The notes under the pieces: generated by a model
The model's database searches: none
Told to the model about the DNA's origin: nothing
What the model saw: the letters and a program-made list of their open reading frames with translations, nothing else
Assembly: GCA_016875395.1 (NCBI GenBank)
Contig: VGRF01000006.1
Location: 1-64,000, forward strand
DNA from: Deltaproteobacteria bacterium
GTDB taxonomy: Bacteria; Myxococcota_A; UBA9160; UBA6930
Direction of reading: 5' to 3'
DNA length: 64,000 nucleotides
Translations under genes and position numbers: made by a program
In this document: positions 27,579 to 35,079 of the stretch, one piece after another
Position numbering within the stretch: the first letter of the stretch is position 1
How the letters are laid out: the number at the start of each line of letters is the position of its first letter

Positions 27579-28895
27579 TCAGCGCGAGGTCGCCGCTCCC
27601 TCTCGCAGCCGGCGTGAAATCAGCTCTGCAGCGAGCTCGTGCCCGCGCTCGTTCCAGTGCACGTCGTCGAGAAGGTACGGATGCGAGCCCGCCTCGACCT
27701 CGCGTCTCAGCACGGGCGTGGTGTCGAGGAAGTCGATCCCCTGGCTCTCCGCCCAAGCGGCCACGCGCTCGTTGAGCCGCGCGTCCTTCCAGCGTGCCAC
27801 GAGGCTTCCTTCCGGGATCTCGAGGAGACCCTGATAGACCTCGAACTTGCGCGGGATGTAGACCACGAGGAAGCGCGCACCGATCTCCCGCGCTCTGCCC
27901 TGCGCCGCGAGCAGGGTCTCGGTCCCCGTGCGCCATTGGTGCTCGCTCGGAGATTGCGTGGCGTGCCCAAAGATCACGAGCTCGCGCTCCCCGCTCGCGC
28001 GCCGGAAGTGGGCGGTGTGAAGCACGCTCGCGGATCGGCGGGCTCCCAGCGCGCGCGAGAGTGCCAGCAGCCCGCTGCGGACGAACGAGCGCTGGCGGAA
28101 CGGAGGCTTCGGCGGGGCCTCGTCCACGCGCTCGAGCATGCGCTCGAATTCCTCGACGTCCCGGAAGTCGTTGCCCCCGAACAAAAACCACAACACGACG
28201 CGCGGCCGCAACGGGAGCCCGAAGCGCTCCAGCACGATCAGCTCTTGGCGGAAGCCGTATGCGCTCTGCCCCAGGTTGGCGACGGTCGCCCCGATCCGCC
28301 GCGCGACTTGTTCGCTCACGGTGTGCTCGCGTGCGACGAGCACGCCCTCGACGAACGAGTCGCCAATCGCCACGACATCGGCGCGCGCCAGCGTCGTGTC
28401 GTTGCGAAAGCCGTTCGCGTCGTAACGCATCTCCACGTGGTAACCGGGCAGATTCGCGGGACCGAAGTGCGCGAGGTTCCCCGGCACTTCGCCTGAGAAC
28501 GTCGAGTTCGGCCAGTGCACGTGGATCAGCTCGGGATCCCGGCGGTTCACACGGTCCGTGAGTTGCTGGAGCGTGGTCTGCGGGTCCAGTCGGAACGTGG
28601 CGCTCCAGTTGTGCCCGGCGAGCGCCGTCGCCTCTGCGAGGCCGAGGCAAGCGACGACGACGAGCGTCGCGGCCAGGAATCCGAGTGCGCGCTCGCGAAC
28701 GCGTTCGGTCGCAACGAGGATCGAGCTCGCGCCGAGCGCGCACCACGAAGCGATGCTGCAGGCGAGGAACGCGTCGAGGCTCCAGCGCCCGAGCAGCACG
28801 CCTCCCCGCCGCTGCGAGGCGATCCACAGCGCTGCGGTTCCGCCTAACAAGAGCAGCGCGAAGACGCGCCGCAGGCGCGGATCAGCGAGCGACAC
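27579..28895 (-). CDS. Membrane-anchored SGNH hydrolase/acyltransferase-like protein
   Basis: A 438-residue protein with three N-terminal membrane segments (about residues 10-27, 38-58 and 70-92) followed by a periplasmic SGNH domain. Block I is VAIGDSFVEG, block III FGGND and block V DDVHWNERGH, giving a complete Ser-Asp-His set. AlgJ/AlgX-like or DltD-like proteins of this fold transfer or remove acyl groups on exported polymers. It is the last gene of the surface-modification operon and overlaps the acyl carrier protein gene by 14 bases. Confidence 0.75.
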   Translation of the reverse strand: MSLADPRLRRVFALLLLGGTAALWIASQRRGGVLLGRWSLDAFLACSIASWCALGASSILVATERVRERALGFLAATLVVVACLGLAEATALAGHNWSATFRLDPQTTLQQLTDRVNRRDPELIHVHWPNSTFSGEVPGNLAHFGPANLPGYHVEMRYDANGFRNDTTLARADVVAIGDSFVEGVLVAREHTVSEQVARRIGATVANLGQSAYGFRQELIVLERFGLPLRPRVVLWFLFGGNDFRDVEEFERMLERVDEAPPKPPFRQRSFVRSGLLALSRALGARRSASVLHTAHFRRASGERELVIFGHATQSPSEHQWRTGTETLLAAQGRAREIGARFLVVYIPRKFEVYQGLLEIPEGSLVARWKDARLNERVAAWAESQGIDFLDTTPVLRREVEAGSHPYLLDDVHWNERGHELAAELISRRLREGAATSR

Positions 28896-29127
28896 GGCGA
28901 CCGATCAGCGCCGCGAGATCCCCGACGCTCGCGAGTGAGGCGACCTCTCCGGTCCGAAACCGCACGCCGAACGCGTCCTCGATCTCGACCATCAGCTCGA
29001 CGTTCGCCAGCGAGTCCCAGCCCGGGACGTCGGCAGCCACGGTCTCGGCGCCGATCGTGAGCGATGCGTCGCCGAAGAAGCGCACGATCGTCTCGAGCAG
29101 CACGTGCAGGATCTCCGCCTCGTTCAT
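28882..29127 (-). CDS. Acyl carrier protein of the surface-modification operon
   Basis: An 81-residue ACP. The phosphopantetheine site is the Ser39 of GWDSLANVEL, flanked by the usual four-helix pattern (ILHVLLETIVRFF, LMVEIEDAFGVRF). It overlaps the FkbH-like gene (ATGA) and the SGNH gene, so all three are translated together. FkbH enzymes load a D-glyceryl group onto such a free-standing ACP. In the Dlt system the equivalent part is DltC. A phosphopantetheinyl transferase is not present locally. Confidence 0.85.
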   Translation of the reverse strand: MNEAEILHVLLETIVRFFGDASLTIGAETVAADVPGWDSLANVELMVEIEDAFGVRFRTGEVASLASVGDLAALIGRRVAR

Positions 29128-30944
29128 CCGGGAACTCCTCGTCGGTCGATCGCGATGAAGTGGCTCGGCGGCCGGAAGGAGGCGAGCTCGAGCTCGTAAG
29201 CGATCTCGTGGTCCGACGCGGCCGCGCGCACGAAGCCGAGGTCGTCGAACAACGTGCGCACGAGCTCGTTGCGCCCCGTCGGAACGAACCGGCCGCGCAG
29301 CCGCGCGTGCCCGCGTGCGGACGCGAGAGCCGCCAGCTCGGTCACGACCAAGTGCTCGACGCCGCGCTTGAGAACGCGACAACTCATCAGCCAATCGTCG
29401 ATGCGGAGGGTGTCTCCGAGGCTGGTCGCCGTGACGACGCCGACGAGCCCGTGATCGCCGAAGCGGTCCGCGAGCCGAACCGTCAGCGACATACCCTCCG
29501 GTCGCTCGATCCACGCGCGCAACTCGGCCTCCGTGAAGCGCCGCGTCGTGAGATTGAACTGATTCGTCTTGTTCGCGAGCTGGAGCACGCGCGCGAACGA
29601 GGTGTCGTCGATCGGGGCAAGCTGCGCGCGCATCTCGAGCGACGCGAGGAACTCCGAGAGGTCCATCGTCTGCGAAAGTGCGCGCGCCGCGGACCGCCGC
29701 TCGTACTGGCCGGCGCGCGCGCGATCGTCCGCCGTGACCTCCGCCGCTTCGAACCAGCGGCTCGCGTCCAGCGCCGCCGCGTAGTCCGCGGGATCGGCGG
29801 GCATGTCGAGCACGGCGACCTCGGGCAGCGCCCGTCGAACCTGCTCGCGCTCGGCCGGGTTGTCGTCCACGAAAACCAGCGCGCTCGGATGCAGCGATAG
29901 GTCTTCGGCGATGGCGCGTAGGGAGTCACTCTTCGGATCCCACGAGGCTCGGAAGGCGGCGAAGTCGCTCAGCTTGAGAACGCACTCCGGGTGACGCTCG
30001 AACGGTGCGCGCGCGTTCTCCAATTCGTTCTTGCTGCACACCGCGAGCAGGACGCCGCGCTCGCGCAACGCACGCACGTGTTGCTGAAACGACTTGAAAG
30101 CCTCGCCCCGCGGCGTTCCCTCTCCCAGCTCGATGCCCGCGACGCCCGCGTCGCCTACCACGCCTCCCCACAGGGTCTCATCGAGGTCGAGCACGAGGCA
30201 CTTCCTCGCTCCACCCAGACGGGCGGCAATCACCGCTGCGACACTCCGCACGTACTCCGGCACCCAGGCGTGAGCGATCGGTTGCTTCGCTTCGTACCAC
30301 AGCCGTGCGTCGCGCCAGCGAGTCGCGCCGTGCAACGCCGCGAGCGCGGCGCTGTCGACGATGTGAACGCCGGGCGGTGCGAGATCCCCGAGCGCGAGGT
30401 TCAGTCGCTGCAGGAAATTCCCCGGATCGCCCGGGGTGCGCGCCGCGAGATTTCCGAGCGGCCGCTCGCGCAGGGCGGGGAAGTTGTCGAGCAAGACCTC
30501 CGATCCACTGCGAGCGCGAAAGGACTCCGCCGCCCCTAACAACAGGCGCGCCGCGCGCTCGGCCACCGCGCTCGCTTCCGAAGCGCTGGCGAGCGCGTCC
30601 GGCCACTCGGGGACATCCTGCGCCGTGAGCACCGCGAGCACGAAGCGCGGCCGCGACCGCGCTACCTAGCTGTCTGCGTCGAGCAGCTGCTGAAGGGCCG
30701 ACGAGTAGGGCGGCAGCTCGATCGCGGCCGAAATGCCTCGAGCGATCAGCGCGAGATCGAGCTGCTGGGCCAGGAAGTCGCGAGTCGCCCGCCCGATGAT
30801 CGAGAGCGTGATCTCCTGCACGGGGATCTGCGGCGCTCCGCCTGCGCGAAGACGCGCGAGTTGCCGCGCCAAGCGCCGGAACTCAGTCGCTTCGGTCGCC
30901 CCGTTCGCTGCAGTCTGCAGCGCTTTCCAGCTCTCTTCCTGCAT
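29124..30944 (-). pseudogene. FkbH-like HAD-family glyceryl transferase with an in-frame TAG
   Basis: One frame of 607 codons from ATG 30944. The N-terminal part (ITLSIIGRATRDFLAQQLDLALIARG ... LLDADS) is the typical FkbH entry domain and is cut from the rest by TAG at 30666-30668 (codon 93). After it come the HAD motif LVLDLDETLWGGVVGD, the FVDDNPAERE motif, and a C-terminal GNAT-like domain (FGDHGLVGVV, LMSCRVLKRGVEH). FkbH proteins convert 1,3-bisphosphoglycerate to D-glyceryl-S-ACP. The start overlaps the upstream gene by 62 bases. If the TAG is real, the catalytic part could only arise by readthrough or internal initiation. Confidence 0.82.
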
Positions 30945-32001
30945 CTAGCCTCGCGATCTCGTCGGCGACGTACGCAGAGAGGCGGAGGCTCGCAGAGTGC
31001 GTCGGATGCGACCAGTCGAAGAACTCCTCGTCGCCGAGGAACTCGCGAAGGTCGATGAAGGGCAGATCTGCCGCGGCCTCACATAACAAGTTCCGGTACG
31101 TGTCCTCGTGGCCTGGGGCGTAGAACCCCGACCGCAGCCAGCCGCCCTCCGGCATCCTCACGACCAGGATCCGCGCGCCCGTGCGCTTCGCGATTTCGCG
31201 GATGCGCAGAAAAGCGCGCAACACCCCGTCGCGTCGAGTGCTTGGATCGAGGGTGCGCATCGCCGCGTAGAGACCGCTCCCGCTTCGAGACCACTCGTAG
31301 TACTGGGCCTTGTCGTGCGGGGCGCGCATCGCGTACCGCGCATCGACGAGGCCGGATACGAGGAGCTTCTTCTCGAGCTGCTGCCGCGAACCGTGCGCGC
31401 CCAGCCAGGCTCGCACGGACGCGACCGTGGCGCGGAAGCGTGCGCTCGAATGCGCCGCAAGGCGGAGCCGCGCGAGCGCAGCCTCGGGTCGCGACTTGCG
31501 CACGAGTTGCTGGGGCCGGGACGTCTCGTCCAACGAGAACAGCGAGCTGTAGCGGTCGATCGCGATGGGAAGCGGGCGCTCGCCCGGTGCGTGCCCGAGC
31601 GTGAAGCGAGGTGCGAGTGCGAGCACGAGAACGTCGCCGATCGCATCCTCGCCGTAGGCGCGCTCGACGTACTCGAGCTGTGTCACCGCGTCGTCGAGGG
31701 TCGAGAAGCTGAGAGAGTCGTTCAGGAACCCGTCGAACTTCGCCCGGGTGCGGAAGGCTTCCGGCCAGAATGCCTCGCGCGACTCCGAGGGACCGAGGAC
31801 GTGCAGCGTGCGCCGCGCGGAGGTCCGGTAACGCGACGGCTCGAAGAGCAGCATCCACTCCTCTTCGCGCCACAGATGCGCGCCGAGGTCGGCCTCTGCC
31901 CAGTCCGCGGCCCGATCGGCCAGCGCGCACACACCCACCCAGCTCGCAGCGCACAGCGCGAGCACGAGCGCGAGCGAACGCGCGCGCTGGCTAGAAGCCA
32001 T
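30883..32001 (-). CDS. DltD-like exported SGNH protein
   Basis: A 372-residue protein with one N-terminal membrane segment (about residues 8-28) and an extracytoplasmic SGNH-like domain. The nucleophile loop is LGPSESREAFW and the C-terminal Asp-His pair lies in FDWSHPTHSASLRLS. In the Dlt pathway DltD takes D-alanine from the DltX tyrosine to teichoic acid; the domain arrangement and neighbourhood suggest the same step here on another polymer. It is separated from the upstream peptide gene by 194 bases that contain repeat copy 3. Confidence 0.65.
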   Translation of the reverse strand: MASSQRARSLALVLALCAASWVGVCALADRAADWAEADLGAHLWREEEWMLLFEPSRYRTSARRTLHVLGPSESREAFWPEAFRTRAKFDGFLNDSLSFSTLDDAVTQLEYVERAYGEDAIGDVLVLALAPRFTLGHAPGERPLPIAIDRYSSLFSLDETSRPQQLVRKSRPEAALARLRLAAHSSARFRATVASVRAWLGAHGSRQQLEKKLLVSGLVDARYAMRAPHDKAQYYEWSRSGSGLYAAMRTLDPSTRRDGVLRAFLRIREIAKRTGARILVVRMPEGGWLRSGFYAPGHEDTYRNLLCEAAADLPFIDLREFLGDEEFFDWSHPTHSASLRLSAYVADEIARLDAGRELESAADCSERGDRSD

Positions 32002-32060
32002 CTCAGTCCTCCCTTCGCCGGGCGCGCGTCTTTGTCCGCCTGGCTTGCTCGCGCGTTCGT

Positions 32061-32088
32061 CTCCGCTCGCCTGCGGCTCGCTGCGCGC
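32061..32088 (-). repeat. Dispersed intergenic repeat, copy 3
   Basis: Read on the minus strand this 28-base stretch starts GCGCGCAGCGAGCCG and ends GGCGAGCGGAG, nearly identical to copies 1 and 2. It lies in the 194-base gap (32002-32195) of the surface-modification operon; nothing else is recognised in that gap. Confidence 0.6.
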
Positions 32089-32195
32089 TCCGCTTGCGCT
32101 TCGCTCGAAGTATCGACGGATACGCCTTCGCTCGCGCGCCTCGCCAGCCGGCCAAATCCGCGCGCCGGGCTCGGTCCGGAATTCTGCGATGGCTT

Positions 32196-32294
32196 CTAGA
32201 ACGCGCGGTAGACGAAGTCAACGTCGCCTCGCGCGAAGACGGTCAGGAGCGCGAGCTGCGCGAGGAGCAAACCGATACGCCATGCGAGGCTCAT
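32196..32294 (-). CDS. DltX-like micropeptide with C-terminal FxYxxF motif
   Basis: A 32-residue peptide starting one base after the MBOAT stop codon, with a GGAGGG-type ribosome-binding site inside the end of the MBOAT gene. A single hydrophobic helix (WRIGLLLAQLALLTVFA) is followed by a polar stretch and ends in DFVYRAF at the very C-terminus. F-V-Y-R-A-F fits the FxYxxF motif of DltX, whose Tyr carries the D-alanyl group between the MBOAT DltB and DltD. Size, topology, motif placement and position beside an MBOAT gene all agree. Homology cannot be proven at this length. Confidence 0.75.
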   Translation of the reverse strand: MSLAWRIGLLLAQLALLTVFARGDVDFVYRAF

Positions 32295-32295
32295 G

Positions 32296-33492
32296 TCACC
32301 CTCCGATCCGAGTCCACAATGAGGCCAGGTCATCCGGCGTCAGCACGAAGAAGACGTACGCGCTTGCCGTGAGCAGGAGCGTGCAGGCGGTGCCGACGAC
32401 GCTCCACCAGCGACGCGCGCGCAAGCTCCGCAGGCCCGCCGCACCCAGGCGACTCTCGAGGATCGACTCGAGCGTGCGGTAGGCGACCTGAATCAAGGCG
32501 TGCACTCCACCGAACAGCACGAACGAGAGCGTCGTCCCGTGCCAAACGCCGGCGACGAGCATGGTGCCGGCGATCGCCAAGTTGCGCGCGGCGAGCCGAT
32601 GGCCGCGCAACCTGCGCATGCGGAGTAGGGCGGTGTAGAGGGGGTGAAACACATAGTCCGTGAGCCACTCGGTGAGCGAGCGATGAACGCGCAGCCAGTA
32701 CTGCGCGATGTTCGGCGAAAGGAACGGGAACCGGAAATTCTCGGGCGGAGCGACGCCCATCAAGCGGCCGATCCCGATCACGATGTCGCAGTATCCGGAG
32801 AAGTCCAGGTAGAGGTAGACGTAGAAGATCCACGCGCCGCTCAGCACCTCGAACGGCCCCAGTCCCTCGATGCCTTCGCCCGGGAGCAACGCCCATCTCG
32901 CGACGAAGTCCGCGAGCACCCACTTCTTGAGGTAACCGCGCAGCACGCGATTCACGGCATCGACGTGGGCGCCGAGATCGGCGGAAAGCGGATCGCGCTC
33001 GCCATTCCACTGCGCTGCGAAGTCTTGGAAGCGCTGGATCGGACCCAACAAGAACGTGGTGAAGTTGAAGCAATACGCGAGATAAGCCGGCAGCGTGAGG
33101 CCATCGAGCCGCCCACCCGCCGAGTCCACGACGACGTGGAGGATCTTGAACAGCAAGTAGCTGAGGCCGGCGACCGCGAGCAGCGGGCTCCAAGCTCCCT
33201 CCGGAAGCGCGTACAGGACGAGGTCGTAGCCGCGCAGATAGGCGAACAGCGCGACGAGTGCGGCGACGCAAGCGGCGGTGAGCCGCGCCCGCGCGCGTGC
33301 GAGCAGCGCGAACGCGTAGCCGAGCAGCGTGAAGCCCAGTACGACGGCGGCGCCGAGCGGCGAGACGAACGTGCTCGCGTAGTACGCGGAGCCGGCCAGG
33401 AAGCCAGCGATGCGCCCTGGGCCCCGCACGAAGCGCACCCAGAAGATCAGCGCCACGGCGAGCGCCACGAACTCGAGCGAGAGCAGGTTCAT
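32296..33492 (-). CDS. MBOAT-family O-acyltransferase (DltB-like)
   Basis: A 398-residue polytopic membrane protein. The membrane-bound O-acyltransferase core is clear: FLLGPIQRFQDF, the YLDFSGYCDIVIGIGRLMG segment, NFRFPFLSPNIAQYWLRVHRSLTEWL, and the catalytic His318 in AGVWHGTTLSFVLFGG. It would move an acyl group from a cytoplasmic ACP thioester across the membrane. It overlaps the upstream AttH-like gene by four bases and is followed by the DltX-like peptide. This places it in the DltB/PatA/AlgI branch rather than the sterol or lipid branch. Confidence 0.88.
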   Translation of the reverse strand: MNLLSLEFVALAVALIFWVRFVRGPGRIAGFLAGSAYYASTFVSPLGAAVVLGFTLLGYAFALLARARARLTAACVAALVALFAYLRGYDLVLYALPEGAWSPLLAVAGLSYLLFKILHVVVDSAGGRLDGLTLPAYLAYCFNFTTFLLGPIQRFQDFAAQWNGERDPLSADLGAHVDAVNRVLRGYLKKWVLADFVARWALLPGEGIEGLGPFEVLSGAWIFYVYLYLDFSGYCDIVIGIGRLMGVAPPENFRFPFLSPNIAQYWLRVHRSLTEWLTDYVFHPLYTALLRMRRLRGHRLAARNLAIAGTMLVAGVWHGTTLSFVLFGGVHALIQVAYRTLESILESRLGAAGLRSLRARRWWSVVGTACTLLLTASAYVFFVLTPDDLASLWTRIGG

Positions 33493-34442
33493 CCGGCCCC
33501 GTTTCCGAAGAGACTGTTACGGAAGAACGCGCGCGCTGCCGGAGCGCTCCAGTTGTCGTGGTCTTCGCCGTATGCCGTGACGCCGTCGAACCGCCACTCG
33601 GTGAGGCAGTTCACCGTGAACAGGTTCGGATTGAGGTGCAGCCCGAGCTTGTTGAGGCAGCGCCCCTCGGCGTGAAGCGAGCGGCCGAGCTCGTCCGCGC
33701 CGTCGATCACGACGCGCAGTGGGAACCCCGTCACCGCGTCGCGCTCCACGACTTCGCGTTTGCCGCTGGCGAGCTTCGACCACACGCCATCCCGTAACAA
33801 GTACCCGTGGATCGAGTTGCAGCCCTGGCCGAAGTCCATCGTGATGGTGTGGAAGGCGTCGCGCTCGCTCGCGGTTGCGTAGCTGTAGCCGCCGCGCTTC
33901 GCAGGCGTGCCGGTCAGGCCGGGGCCGAACTGCGAGCGCACGCCCCAGGAGCGGTCGCGGAAGCCGAACGCGTCGACGCGAATCGTCTCGCCGCGCAGCA
34001 CGAGCGTGCCCTGATAACGGCCAGGCTGGTCGAGGTGGCCGTGGCCCAAGTAGTTAGGGCGCGCGACGGCGGTGAACGTCAGATCGAGGTGGACCTCGTC
34101 GCCGCCGTCGGGGTCGTCGTAGCCGATCGCGTACTTCGCGAGCGGCTCCTCGCAGCGGATGCGGATGCCGTTCGGCAGCGCGAGATCGGAGAGCTTCGCG
34201 TCCTGCGCGAGCGGCAGGTGCCAGAAGTTCTTCGCGTAGACGCAGTTCCAGAGCTGGTCGCCACGCGCATCCCAGAAGTAAGCGCCGCCCGCGGCGACGT
34301 TCTGGTTGCGCTGGAAGAACGGATACAGCTGCCCTGATAAGCGCCGTTCCGGCACCGTGAAGGTGAACCAGCAGGTCTCGGTCCAGTACGGGTCCGCCGA
34401 CGTCGGCGCGTGAAACTCGTCGTCGGCGTGCGGAGCGCTCAC
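33489..34442 (-). CDS. AttH/CrtC-like lipocalin-fold protein
   Basis: A 317-residue soluble protein, mostly predicted beta-strand, with segments such as HLDLTFTAVARPNYLGHGH, the charged GFRDRSWGVRSQFGPG and a late LTEWRFDGVTAYGEDHDNW. The FRDRSWG pattern occurs in AttH/carotenoid-hydratase-like and DUF7064-type proteins of two lipocalin-like halves. The function is unknown. GTG 34442 overlaps the SnoaL-like stop and its own stop overlaps the MBOAT start, so it is translationally coupled on both sides. Confidence 0.6.
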   Translation of the reverse strand: MSAPHADDEFHAPTSADPYWTETCWFTFTVPERRLSGQLYPFFQRNQNVAAGGAYFWDARGDQLWNCVYAKNFWHLPLAQDAKLSDLALPNGIRIRCEEPLAKYAIGYDDPDGGDEVHLDLTFTAVARPNYLGHGHLDQPGRYQGTLVLRGETIRVDAFGFRDRSWGVRSQFGPGLTGTPAKRGGYSYATASERDAFHTITMDFGQGCNSIHGYLLRDGVWSKLASGKREVVERDAVTGFPLRVVIDGADELGRSLHAEGRCLNKLGLHLNPNLFTVNCLTEWRFDGVTAYGEDHDNWSAPAARAFFRNSLFGNGAG

Positions 34443-34984
34443 TTCTTCTTGGCCTTCGCGACCTTTCTCGCGGGCGCCTTCTTCGCCGCGGCCTTCTTCG
34501 CCGCCGGCTTCGCGCTCGCAGCGCGCTTCTGCATCGCCGCCTCCGGGTTCGTGAACTCCGCCGGCATGTTGTGCGTGAAGCACTTTTCCTCGGCGCGCTT
34601 CGTGATGCGCCAGCCATCGAGCGTGCGCAGATACTCGTCGTGGTACCAGAGCCCGCAGAAGAACACGCGGTCTTGGTTGCCGCCTCGCAACACCATCGGG
34701 TTCCAGCAGATCGTCTTCGCCGTCGCGCGGTTGCCTGATAACTGGACGCGGCTCGTCGCGACCATGTGCTGTAAGCCGCCGAACATCGCGAGGGCTTGGC
34801 GGAGGAACGCCTTGGTCTCTTCGAGCCCGCCCGCGCTGCCGCCGAACGCGGTGTAGTCGATGAACGCGTCCCTCGTGAACACCTTGTCGAGCGCGTCGAA
34901 ATCGCGCGTGTCGATGGCGTGGCTGTAGGCAGCCTGCAGGTCGTCGATCTCGAGGCGGTCCGAAAGCTCTTGCAGCGACTTCAC
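34439..34984 (-). CDS. SnoaL/NTF2-like protein with lysine-alanine-rich tail
   Basis: A 181-residue protein. Residues 1-140 form an NTF2-like cone (LQELSDRLEIDDLQAAYSHAIDTRD, then WRITKRAEEKCF), as in SnoaL-type cyclases and hydratases. The last 30 residues are almost only Lys and Ala (for example AAKKAAAKKAPARKVAKAKKK in part), resembling a histone H1 tail. GTG 34984 is preceded by the strong Shine-Dalgarno GGAGGAAT. It is the first gene of the operon leading to the MBOAT. The tail may bind nucleic acid or anionic polymers. Confidence 0.75.
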   Translation of the reverse strand: MKSLQELSDRLEIDDLQAAYSHAIDTRDFDALDKVFTRDAFIDYTAFGGSAGGLEETKAFLRQALAMFGGLQHMVATSRVQLSGNRATAKTICWNPMVLRGGNQDRVFFCGLWYHDEYLRTLDGWRITKRAEEKCFTHNMPAEFTNPEAAMQKRAASAKPAAKKAAAKKAPARKVAKAKKK

Positions 34985-35079
34985 TGGTGAATTCCTCCGT
35001 GGCACGCAACGAAAGCGCGGCTGGCGCCGCGGCGCGAGCCCTTCGCTGGGCGCGTTAGCGTGCTCGCACGGAGTGCTCG

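Follow-up and report, generated by a model that had tools for sequence, protein, structure and literature searches.

Several described systems share parts with the locus reported here. The closest is Dlt (DltA, DltB, DltC, DltD, and DltX), which D-alanylates teichoic acid and comprises a carrier protein, a DltB-type MBOAT, a one-helix microprotein with a C-terminal FxYxxF motif, and a DltD-fold SGNH protein. In the O-acetylation systems PatA/PatB and AlgI/AlgX, the Tyr hexapeptide motif forms the C-terminus of the MBOAT itself, and acyl-CoA serves as the donor without any carrier protein (PMC12148441). Acyl-Tyr formation has been demonstrated in PatA/PatB, and a 2025 account describes the non-Dlt MBOAT/SGNH pathways as having neither a carrier protein nor a DltX-like microprotein (PMC12148441). 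FkbH-family enzymes paired with a stand-alone ACP, for their part, are known from the glyceryl-ACP systems of polyketide and tetronate biosynthesis (Mad7/Mad8 and Mad14/Mad12). We searched the open literature for FkbH with MBOAT, for FkbH with glyceryl polysaccharide or O-antigen, and for MBOAT with SGNH and acyl carrier protein, and found no such system described. The statement made in an earlier sequence-only reading of this DNA, that it knew of no described system with such a combination, holds for the literature searched, where the individual components appear but not their association.

The stretch of DNA analysed here (the window; 64,000 nucleotides) carries, at positions 27579-33492 of the minus strand, genes for a DltB-type MBOAT, a microprotein, an SGNH protein (SGNH2), an FkbH enzyme, a free ACP, and a membrane SGNH protein (SGNHm), listed in the table below. 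All the genes named in the sequence-only reading were found there on the one strand. The claim that their ends mostly overlap is correct for the FkbH and ACP genes (4 nt) and for those of ACP and SGNHm (14 nt). The MBOAT and microprotein genes, however, are 1 nt apart, and 194 nt separate the microprotein from SGNH2. Those 194 nt are the sequence of a repeat of approximately 210 bp that occurs elsewhere in the genome and had been overlooked. Upstream, on the same strand, a gene of the Rv3169/DUF7064-7065 family (33489-35009) shares 4 nt with the start of the MBOAT gene.

Features of the minus-strand cluster, with the evidence for each assignment
Feature	Position	Strand	Evidence
Membrane-anchored second SGNH/AlgX-like protein (SGNHm), Ser180, Asp411/His413	27579..28895	-	PF13472 and PF16822 (ALGX)
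Free acyl carrier protein	28882..29127	-	PF00550; DSL Ser39; synteny with the ACPs of L062, L063, and L065
FkbH-type HAD/GNAT enzyme (glyceryl-ACP forming family), in-frame TAG at 30666-30668	29124..30944	-	TIGR01686, 308 bits; PDB 3slr, 176 bits; motifs
DltD-like SGNH acyltransferase (SGNH2; modelled), N-terminal membrane anchor, Ser72/Asp329/His332	30883..32001	-	Invariant triad in orthologues; AlphaFold2 model; Foldseek; DltD alignment
MITE-like repeat, approximately 210 bp, terminal inverted repeats (CTAGAAGCCATC)	31991..32200		Inverted-repeat search; genome matches; boundaries
DltX-like microprotein, 32 residues, one TM helix, C-terminus DFVYRAF, putative acyl-shuttle Tyr29	32196..32294	-	Conserved beside split MBOATs; purifying selection in relatives; fused versions in sister MBOATs
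DltB-type MBOAT O-acyltransferase, 398 residues, catalytic His318, no fused C-terminal motif	32296..33492	-	PF03062, 60 bits; TIGR04091 (DltB), 159.9 bits; PDB matches; tree

Compared with Dlt, the operon has an additional membrane SGNH protein, and FkbH takes the place of DltA: profile searches of the genes of 27579-35009 returned no AMP-binding (DltA-like ligase) gene. Since DltA is absent, this is not a Dlt system, yet by analogy it would work like one, and with FkbH instead of DltA, an acyl group other than that of Dlt is to be expected. Within the same order, a Dlt-like locus in another genome (G030; L031, 5597-10105) likewise has an ACP, an MBOAT of DltB size (395 residues), a 41-residue peptide ending in FDYGRF, and an SGNH-like protein, but carries an adenylating-ligase-like gene where the window has FkbH. 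Unlike the Mad-type systems, the locus has no polyketide synthase or tetronate genes, and FkbH and its ACP are apparently coupled to a membrane acyl relay instead. In the window, no polysaccharide genes were seen around the operon; the adjacent genes have metabolic functions or encode a TonB receptor, and this receptor points to an outer membrane.

By sequence, the MBOAT belongs to the DltB family, although its score against the NCBIfam DltB model (TIGR04091, the best-scoring model) lies under the equivalog cut-off of 375 bits. The only solved relatives that a sequence search of the PDB gave are two DltB structures (6bug and 8jem, E 2e-34), and the histidine of the WHG motif is residue 318, as had been proposed. 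The protein ends in SLWTRIGG and the Tyr motif sits on a separate ORF, so that the MBOAT does not have the fused hexapeptide of the AlgI/PatA type. In a quick tree, in which long branches were flagged by the program, the window MBOAT clusters with those of 3 loci that also share its synteny (L062, L063, and L065; support 100). One clade of this tree (SH-aLRT 100) unites all MBOATs that have the motif on a separate peptide ("split") with Streptococcus thermophilus DltB and 4 re-fused proteins (L088, L097, L130, and L080). Most fused MBOATs are AlgI/PatA-like and fall in another clade; linkage to FkbH occurs in both.

The 32-residue peptide noted in the sequence-only reading (MSLAWRIGLLLAQLALLTVFARGDVDFVYRAF) is present, begins 1 nt past the MBOAT stop, and has the two features of a Dlt-type microprotein, namely one TM helix and a C-terminal FxYxxF motif (FVYRAF). 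A 32-codon ORF is by itself weak evidence, and one could suppose that it arose by chance and that its ending is a coincidence. Three lines of evidence refute this reading and leave it a negligible probability. First, the 300 kb of sequence surrounding 15 split loci contain 2,859 short ORFs, of which 16 have the motif ending, and 15 of those 16 are the microproteins; the terminal Tyr motif is thus far above chance beside split MBOATs. Second, codon changes in the close pair L067/L069 indicate purifying selection, with 17 synonymous vs 2 non-synonymous changes in frame; reading the other frames gives 2/18 and 2/17. Third, helix and motif are fused onto the 4 re-fused DltB-clade MBOATs named above, all beside FkbH, and such fusion in a branch of the same clade ties microprotein and MBOAT together functionally. 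In all microproteins examined, a single hydrophobic helix precedes the C-terminal motif. The Tyr is invariant in 21 of the 21 compared, partly by construction, since the search itself relied on the motif pattern; this does not apply to the lack of MBOATs without a motif, described below. The microprotein is therefore real, and general across FkbH loci with a split MBOAT.

For SGNH2, the putative catalytic triad (Ser72, Asp329, and His332) is invariant in the orthologues L062, L063, and L065. The protein has no Pfam match, and a profile search against PDB sequences gave nothing beyond a weak match to AlgX. The relation to DltD comes from the structure model, as the sequence search yielded that AlgX match alone: Foldseek with the AlphaFold2 model (pLDDT 70.7) retrieved DltD (6pfx, E 3e-4) as well as PatB, and the model aligns to DltD 7dxm over 270 residues (Z 13.6), which is one of the longest of the alignments listed. 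Together with the conserved triad, this modelling agrees with the DltD-like SGNH protein of the sequence-only reading, and SGNH2 would accordingly be of the DltD type. The DltD-like partners at other split loci also have weak or no matches to the Pfam SGNH models. SGNHm, in contrast to SGNH2, matches both PF13472 and ALGX, as expected for the membrane SGNH protein that had been read there; a counterpart occupies the same place in L065 and, with weak likeness, in L062.

With the window MBOAT alone as the query against genome contigs, no relative was found, and FkbH was therefore used to survey other genomes. A first survey took the 80 FkbH loci nearest to that of the window among 84,980 genomes and counted an MBOAT if it lay within 10 kb; a second, unbiased survey drew its FkbH loci from 379 genomes belonging to the same phylum as the window. 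Both rest on similarity and proximity, and the 2 samples share at least one contig (L070 and L152). An MBOAT was present at 46 of the 80 nearest loci, in at least 12 phyla. Of these 46 proteins, 30 themselves end in the Tyr motif, and 2 more are fused cases (L134, with a frameshift, and L080, ending in SVYKGY). Another 13 have no terminal motif and a separate short motif ORF nearby (12 found by the search and L066 by eye), while the remaining locus (L114) is cut by a contig end. Besides the window, the phylum sample comprised 45 FkbH loci, and 18 of these have an MBOAT: the motif is fused in 11 and on a separate microprotein in 6, while 1 (L156) is cut by a contig end. With the window counted, the figure is 19 of 46. 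A short ORF ending in xxYxxF was present near the MBOAT at 20 FkbH loci that have no fused motif. Neither survey gave an FkbH-linked MBOAT with a readable C-terminal side but neither a fused motif nor a nearby microprotein. The search for small Tyr-motif ORFs proposed in the sequence-only reading, when run, thus returned a fused motif or a separate peptide wherever the sequence could be read.

The gene order recurs at other loci. L062 has MBOAT-peptide-SGNH-MaoC-SDR-FkbH-ACP-SGNHm, L065 (Planctomycetota) the same order minus MaoC-SDR, and L063 (Ruegeria atlantica) MBOAT-peptide-SGNH-FkbH-ACP. A second arrangement, FkbH-ACP-SGNH-peptide-MBOAT, occurs in L052, from the window's own family, and also in Acidobacteriota and Verrucomicrobiota. 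Many fused-type MBOATs likewise adjoin FkbH and ACP. In further contrast to Dlt, the FkbH-linked loci are mostly found in diderm phyla, in some cases beside polysaccharide genes: the Ruegeria locus is followed by rmlCBDA genes and an AT3-SGNH gene, and in Edaphobacter (L069), from reading the sequences, an EPS cluster surrounds the locus.

The FkbH of the window scores 308.1 bits against TIGR01686, above the curated cut-off of 146.65, and the DxDxT, DDN, and SCRVL motifs are conserved (LDLDETLW, FVDDN, and LMSCRVL). Its identity as an FkbH-type HAD/GNAT enzyme is therefore as had been read, but the gene is not a single open frame. A TAG at 30668-30666, overlooked before, splits one FkbH frame within the N-terminal domain into 92 codons (30944-30666) and 513 codons (30665-29124). 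All ten relatives read have a sense codon at this position. If the TAG is not simply a mistake of the assembly, this organism may have the pathway switched off, or may require readthrough or restart. The repeat between the microprotein and SGNH2 is a second irregularity. Across the genome, 57 matches to it were found, with dozens of full or partial copies, the best of which are 92-98% identical. Its exact insertion point is the CTAG at the stop codon of the microprotein; the microprotein is intact and keeps this stop codon, and the present ATG of SGNH2 comes from the repeat.

Taken together, the TAG and the repeat could mean that the locus is decaying in this genome, with FkbH a pseudogene and the relay inactive or otherwise fed here, while the family is functional elsewhere. 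We consider this a tentative alternative, and the less probable course. The MBOAT, microprotein, SGNH2, ACP, and SGNHm genes are all intact, the HAD and GNAT parts of FkbH are contained in the uninterrupted 513-codon frame, and the repeat has preserved one stop codon and supplied a start codon. Draft genomes, moreover, may contain single-base errors.

We thus favour the reading that the operon probably encodes an MBOAT/SGNH acyl relay that is fed by a carrier protein and works like Dlt, with FkbH replacing the adenylating DltA. The case for the relay itself, which derives from homology and conservation, is strong. As inferred from its family, FkbH would take D-1,3-bisphosphoglycerate, remove phosphate, and load glycerate on the phosphopantetheine of the ACP, which is a PP-binding carrier with the DSL serine (Ser39) previously pointed out. 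By homology to DltB/DltX and PatA, the MBOAT would then take the acyl group from the ACP at the cytoplasmic side and esterify it to Tyr29 of the microprotein (FVYRAF) at the outer face. From this Tyr, the group would pass to Ser72 of the DltD-fold SGNH2 and on to a hydroxyl group of a glycan that belongs to the envelope or is exported, a sequence of steps analogous to the MBOAT-to-Tyr-to-SGNH-Ser chemistry of PatA/PatB and AlgI/AlgX. Unlike those systems, the window has a separate peptide and an ACP. SGNHm may be a further transferase or an acceptor-specific partner. The transfer from ACP to a peptide Tyr had already been suggested in the sequence-only reading, and the motif survey, the DltB-only PDB relatives of the MBOAT, and the SGNH2 model on DltD all support it.

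Most characterised non-Dlt MBOAT/SGNH pairs use acyl-CoA (PMC12148441), and the MBOAT and SGNH proteins could in principle perform ordinary O-acetylation from acetyl-CoA, with the adjacent FkbH and ACP serving an unrelated pathway. This is very unlikely, given that the FkbH-ACP-MBOAT linkage recurs at the frequencies found in both surveys and that DltB, the closest characterised MBOAT, receives its acyl group from a carrier protein.

From the FkbH family, the most likely cargo of the relay is glyceryl. In 4 loci, however, the operon also contains genes for a MaoC dehydratase and an SDR (L062, 8465-9623; L052, 11580-12699; L074, 14254-15406; and L099, 8540-9692), which suggests that some members of the family convert glyceryl-ACP into a different acyl group; with these two enzymes, the product might, for example, be lactyl-ACP. 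Known FkbH systems do oxidise and methylate glyceryl-ACP further (PMC7489565). The same relay could therefore carry a non-glyceryl group, obtained by such conversion, by epimerisation or oxidation, or because FkbH loads a related acid. This seems unlikely, as the window operon and most split loci have no MaoC/SDR genes, which are also equally common at FkbH loci without an MBOAT. As constant members of the system, the MaoC/SDR and VOC genes were rejected: they occur in a minority of loci and are not specific to those with an MBOAT. VOC (epimerase-like) genes lie beside the FkbH-MBOAT loci L083, L085, L093, L111, L066, and L129, and could epimerise D-glyceryl to L-glyceryl, as the L-glycerate of gellan requires. 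For the glyceryl relay, the genomic context in relatives (rmlCBDA in Ruegeria and the EPS genes in Edaphobacter) suggests an envelope or exported glycan as the acceptor.

In many bacteria, a small acid unit, probably glycerate, appears to cross the membrane via a carrier, an MBOAT, and a 30-50-residue peptide ending in a Tyr motif. Whether FkbH-ACP-MBOAT-SGNH constitutes a widespread, undescribed pathway that esterifies bacterial surface polysaccharides with glyceryl (or FkbH-derived) groups, with split and fused forms and as a second carrier-fed class beside Dlt, is in our judgement evenly balanced. In contrast to the 2025 account (PMC12148441), ACP and microprotein genes occur here across many phyla, linked to an enzyme which, judging by its family, would draw the acyl group from glycolysis. 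Such a pathway would connect central metabolism in a general way with the decoration of surface polymers, and would account for many unannotated genes of 30-50 codons. The exopolysaccharide gellan carries L-glycerate (PMC9104527). The pathway could include the enzymes that add L-glycerate to gellan-type polymers, and the question of which enzymes add glycerate to such polymers would become testable.

Two further loci deserve mention. In L057 (8218-11019), FkbH-ACP is followed by a hexapeptide-type acyltransferase, and FkbH-ACP may thus also feed cytoplasmic sugar acylation. Sinorhizobium meliloti, a relative amenable to experiment, has on pSymB an operon MBOAT-SGNH-ACP-FkbH, in which the MBOAT has a fused PPFLYQGF end (L185, 11242-12713, in strain 1021 at approximately 631.2-632.7 kb; and L186). 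The ACP SMb20651 of S. meliloti was considered as the ACP of such an operon, which was not supported, its partner being a ligase (PMC7232532). In the pSymB operon, the gene that lies between MBOAT and ACP and so occupies the place of SGNH carries the annotation "TonB-dependent receptor" but gave no Pfam match, and the FkbH gene is apparently frameshifted in strain 1021 and intact in other strains.
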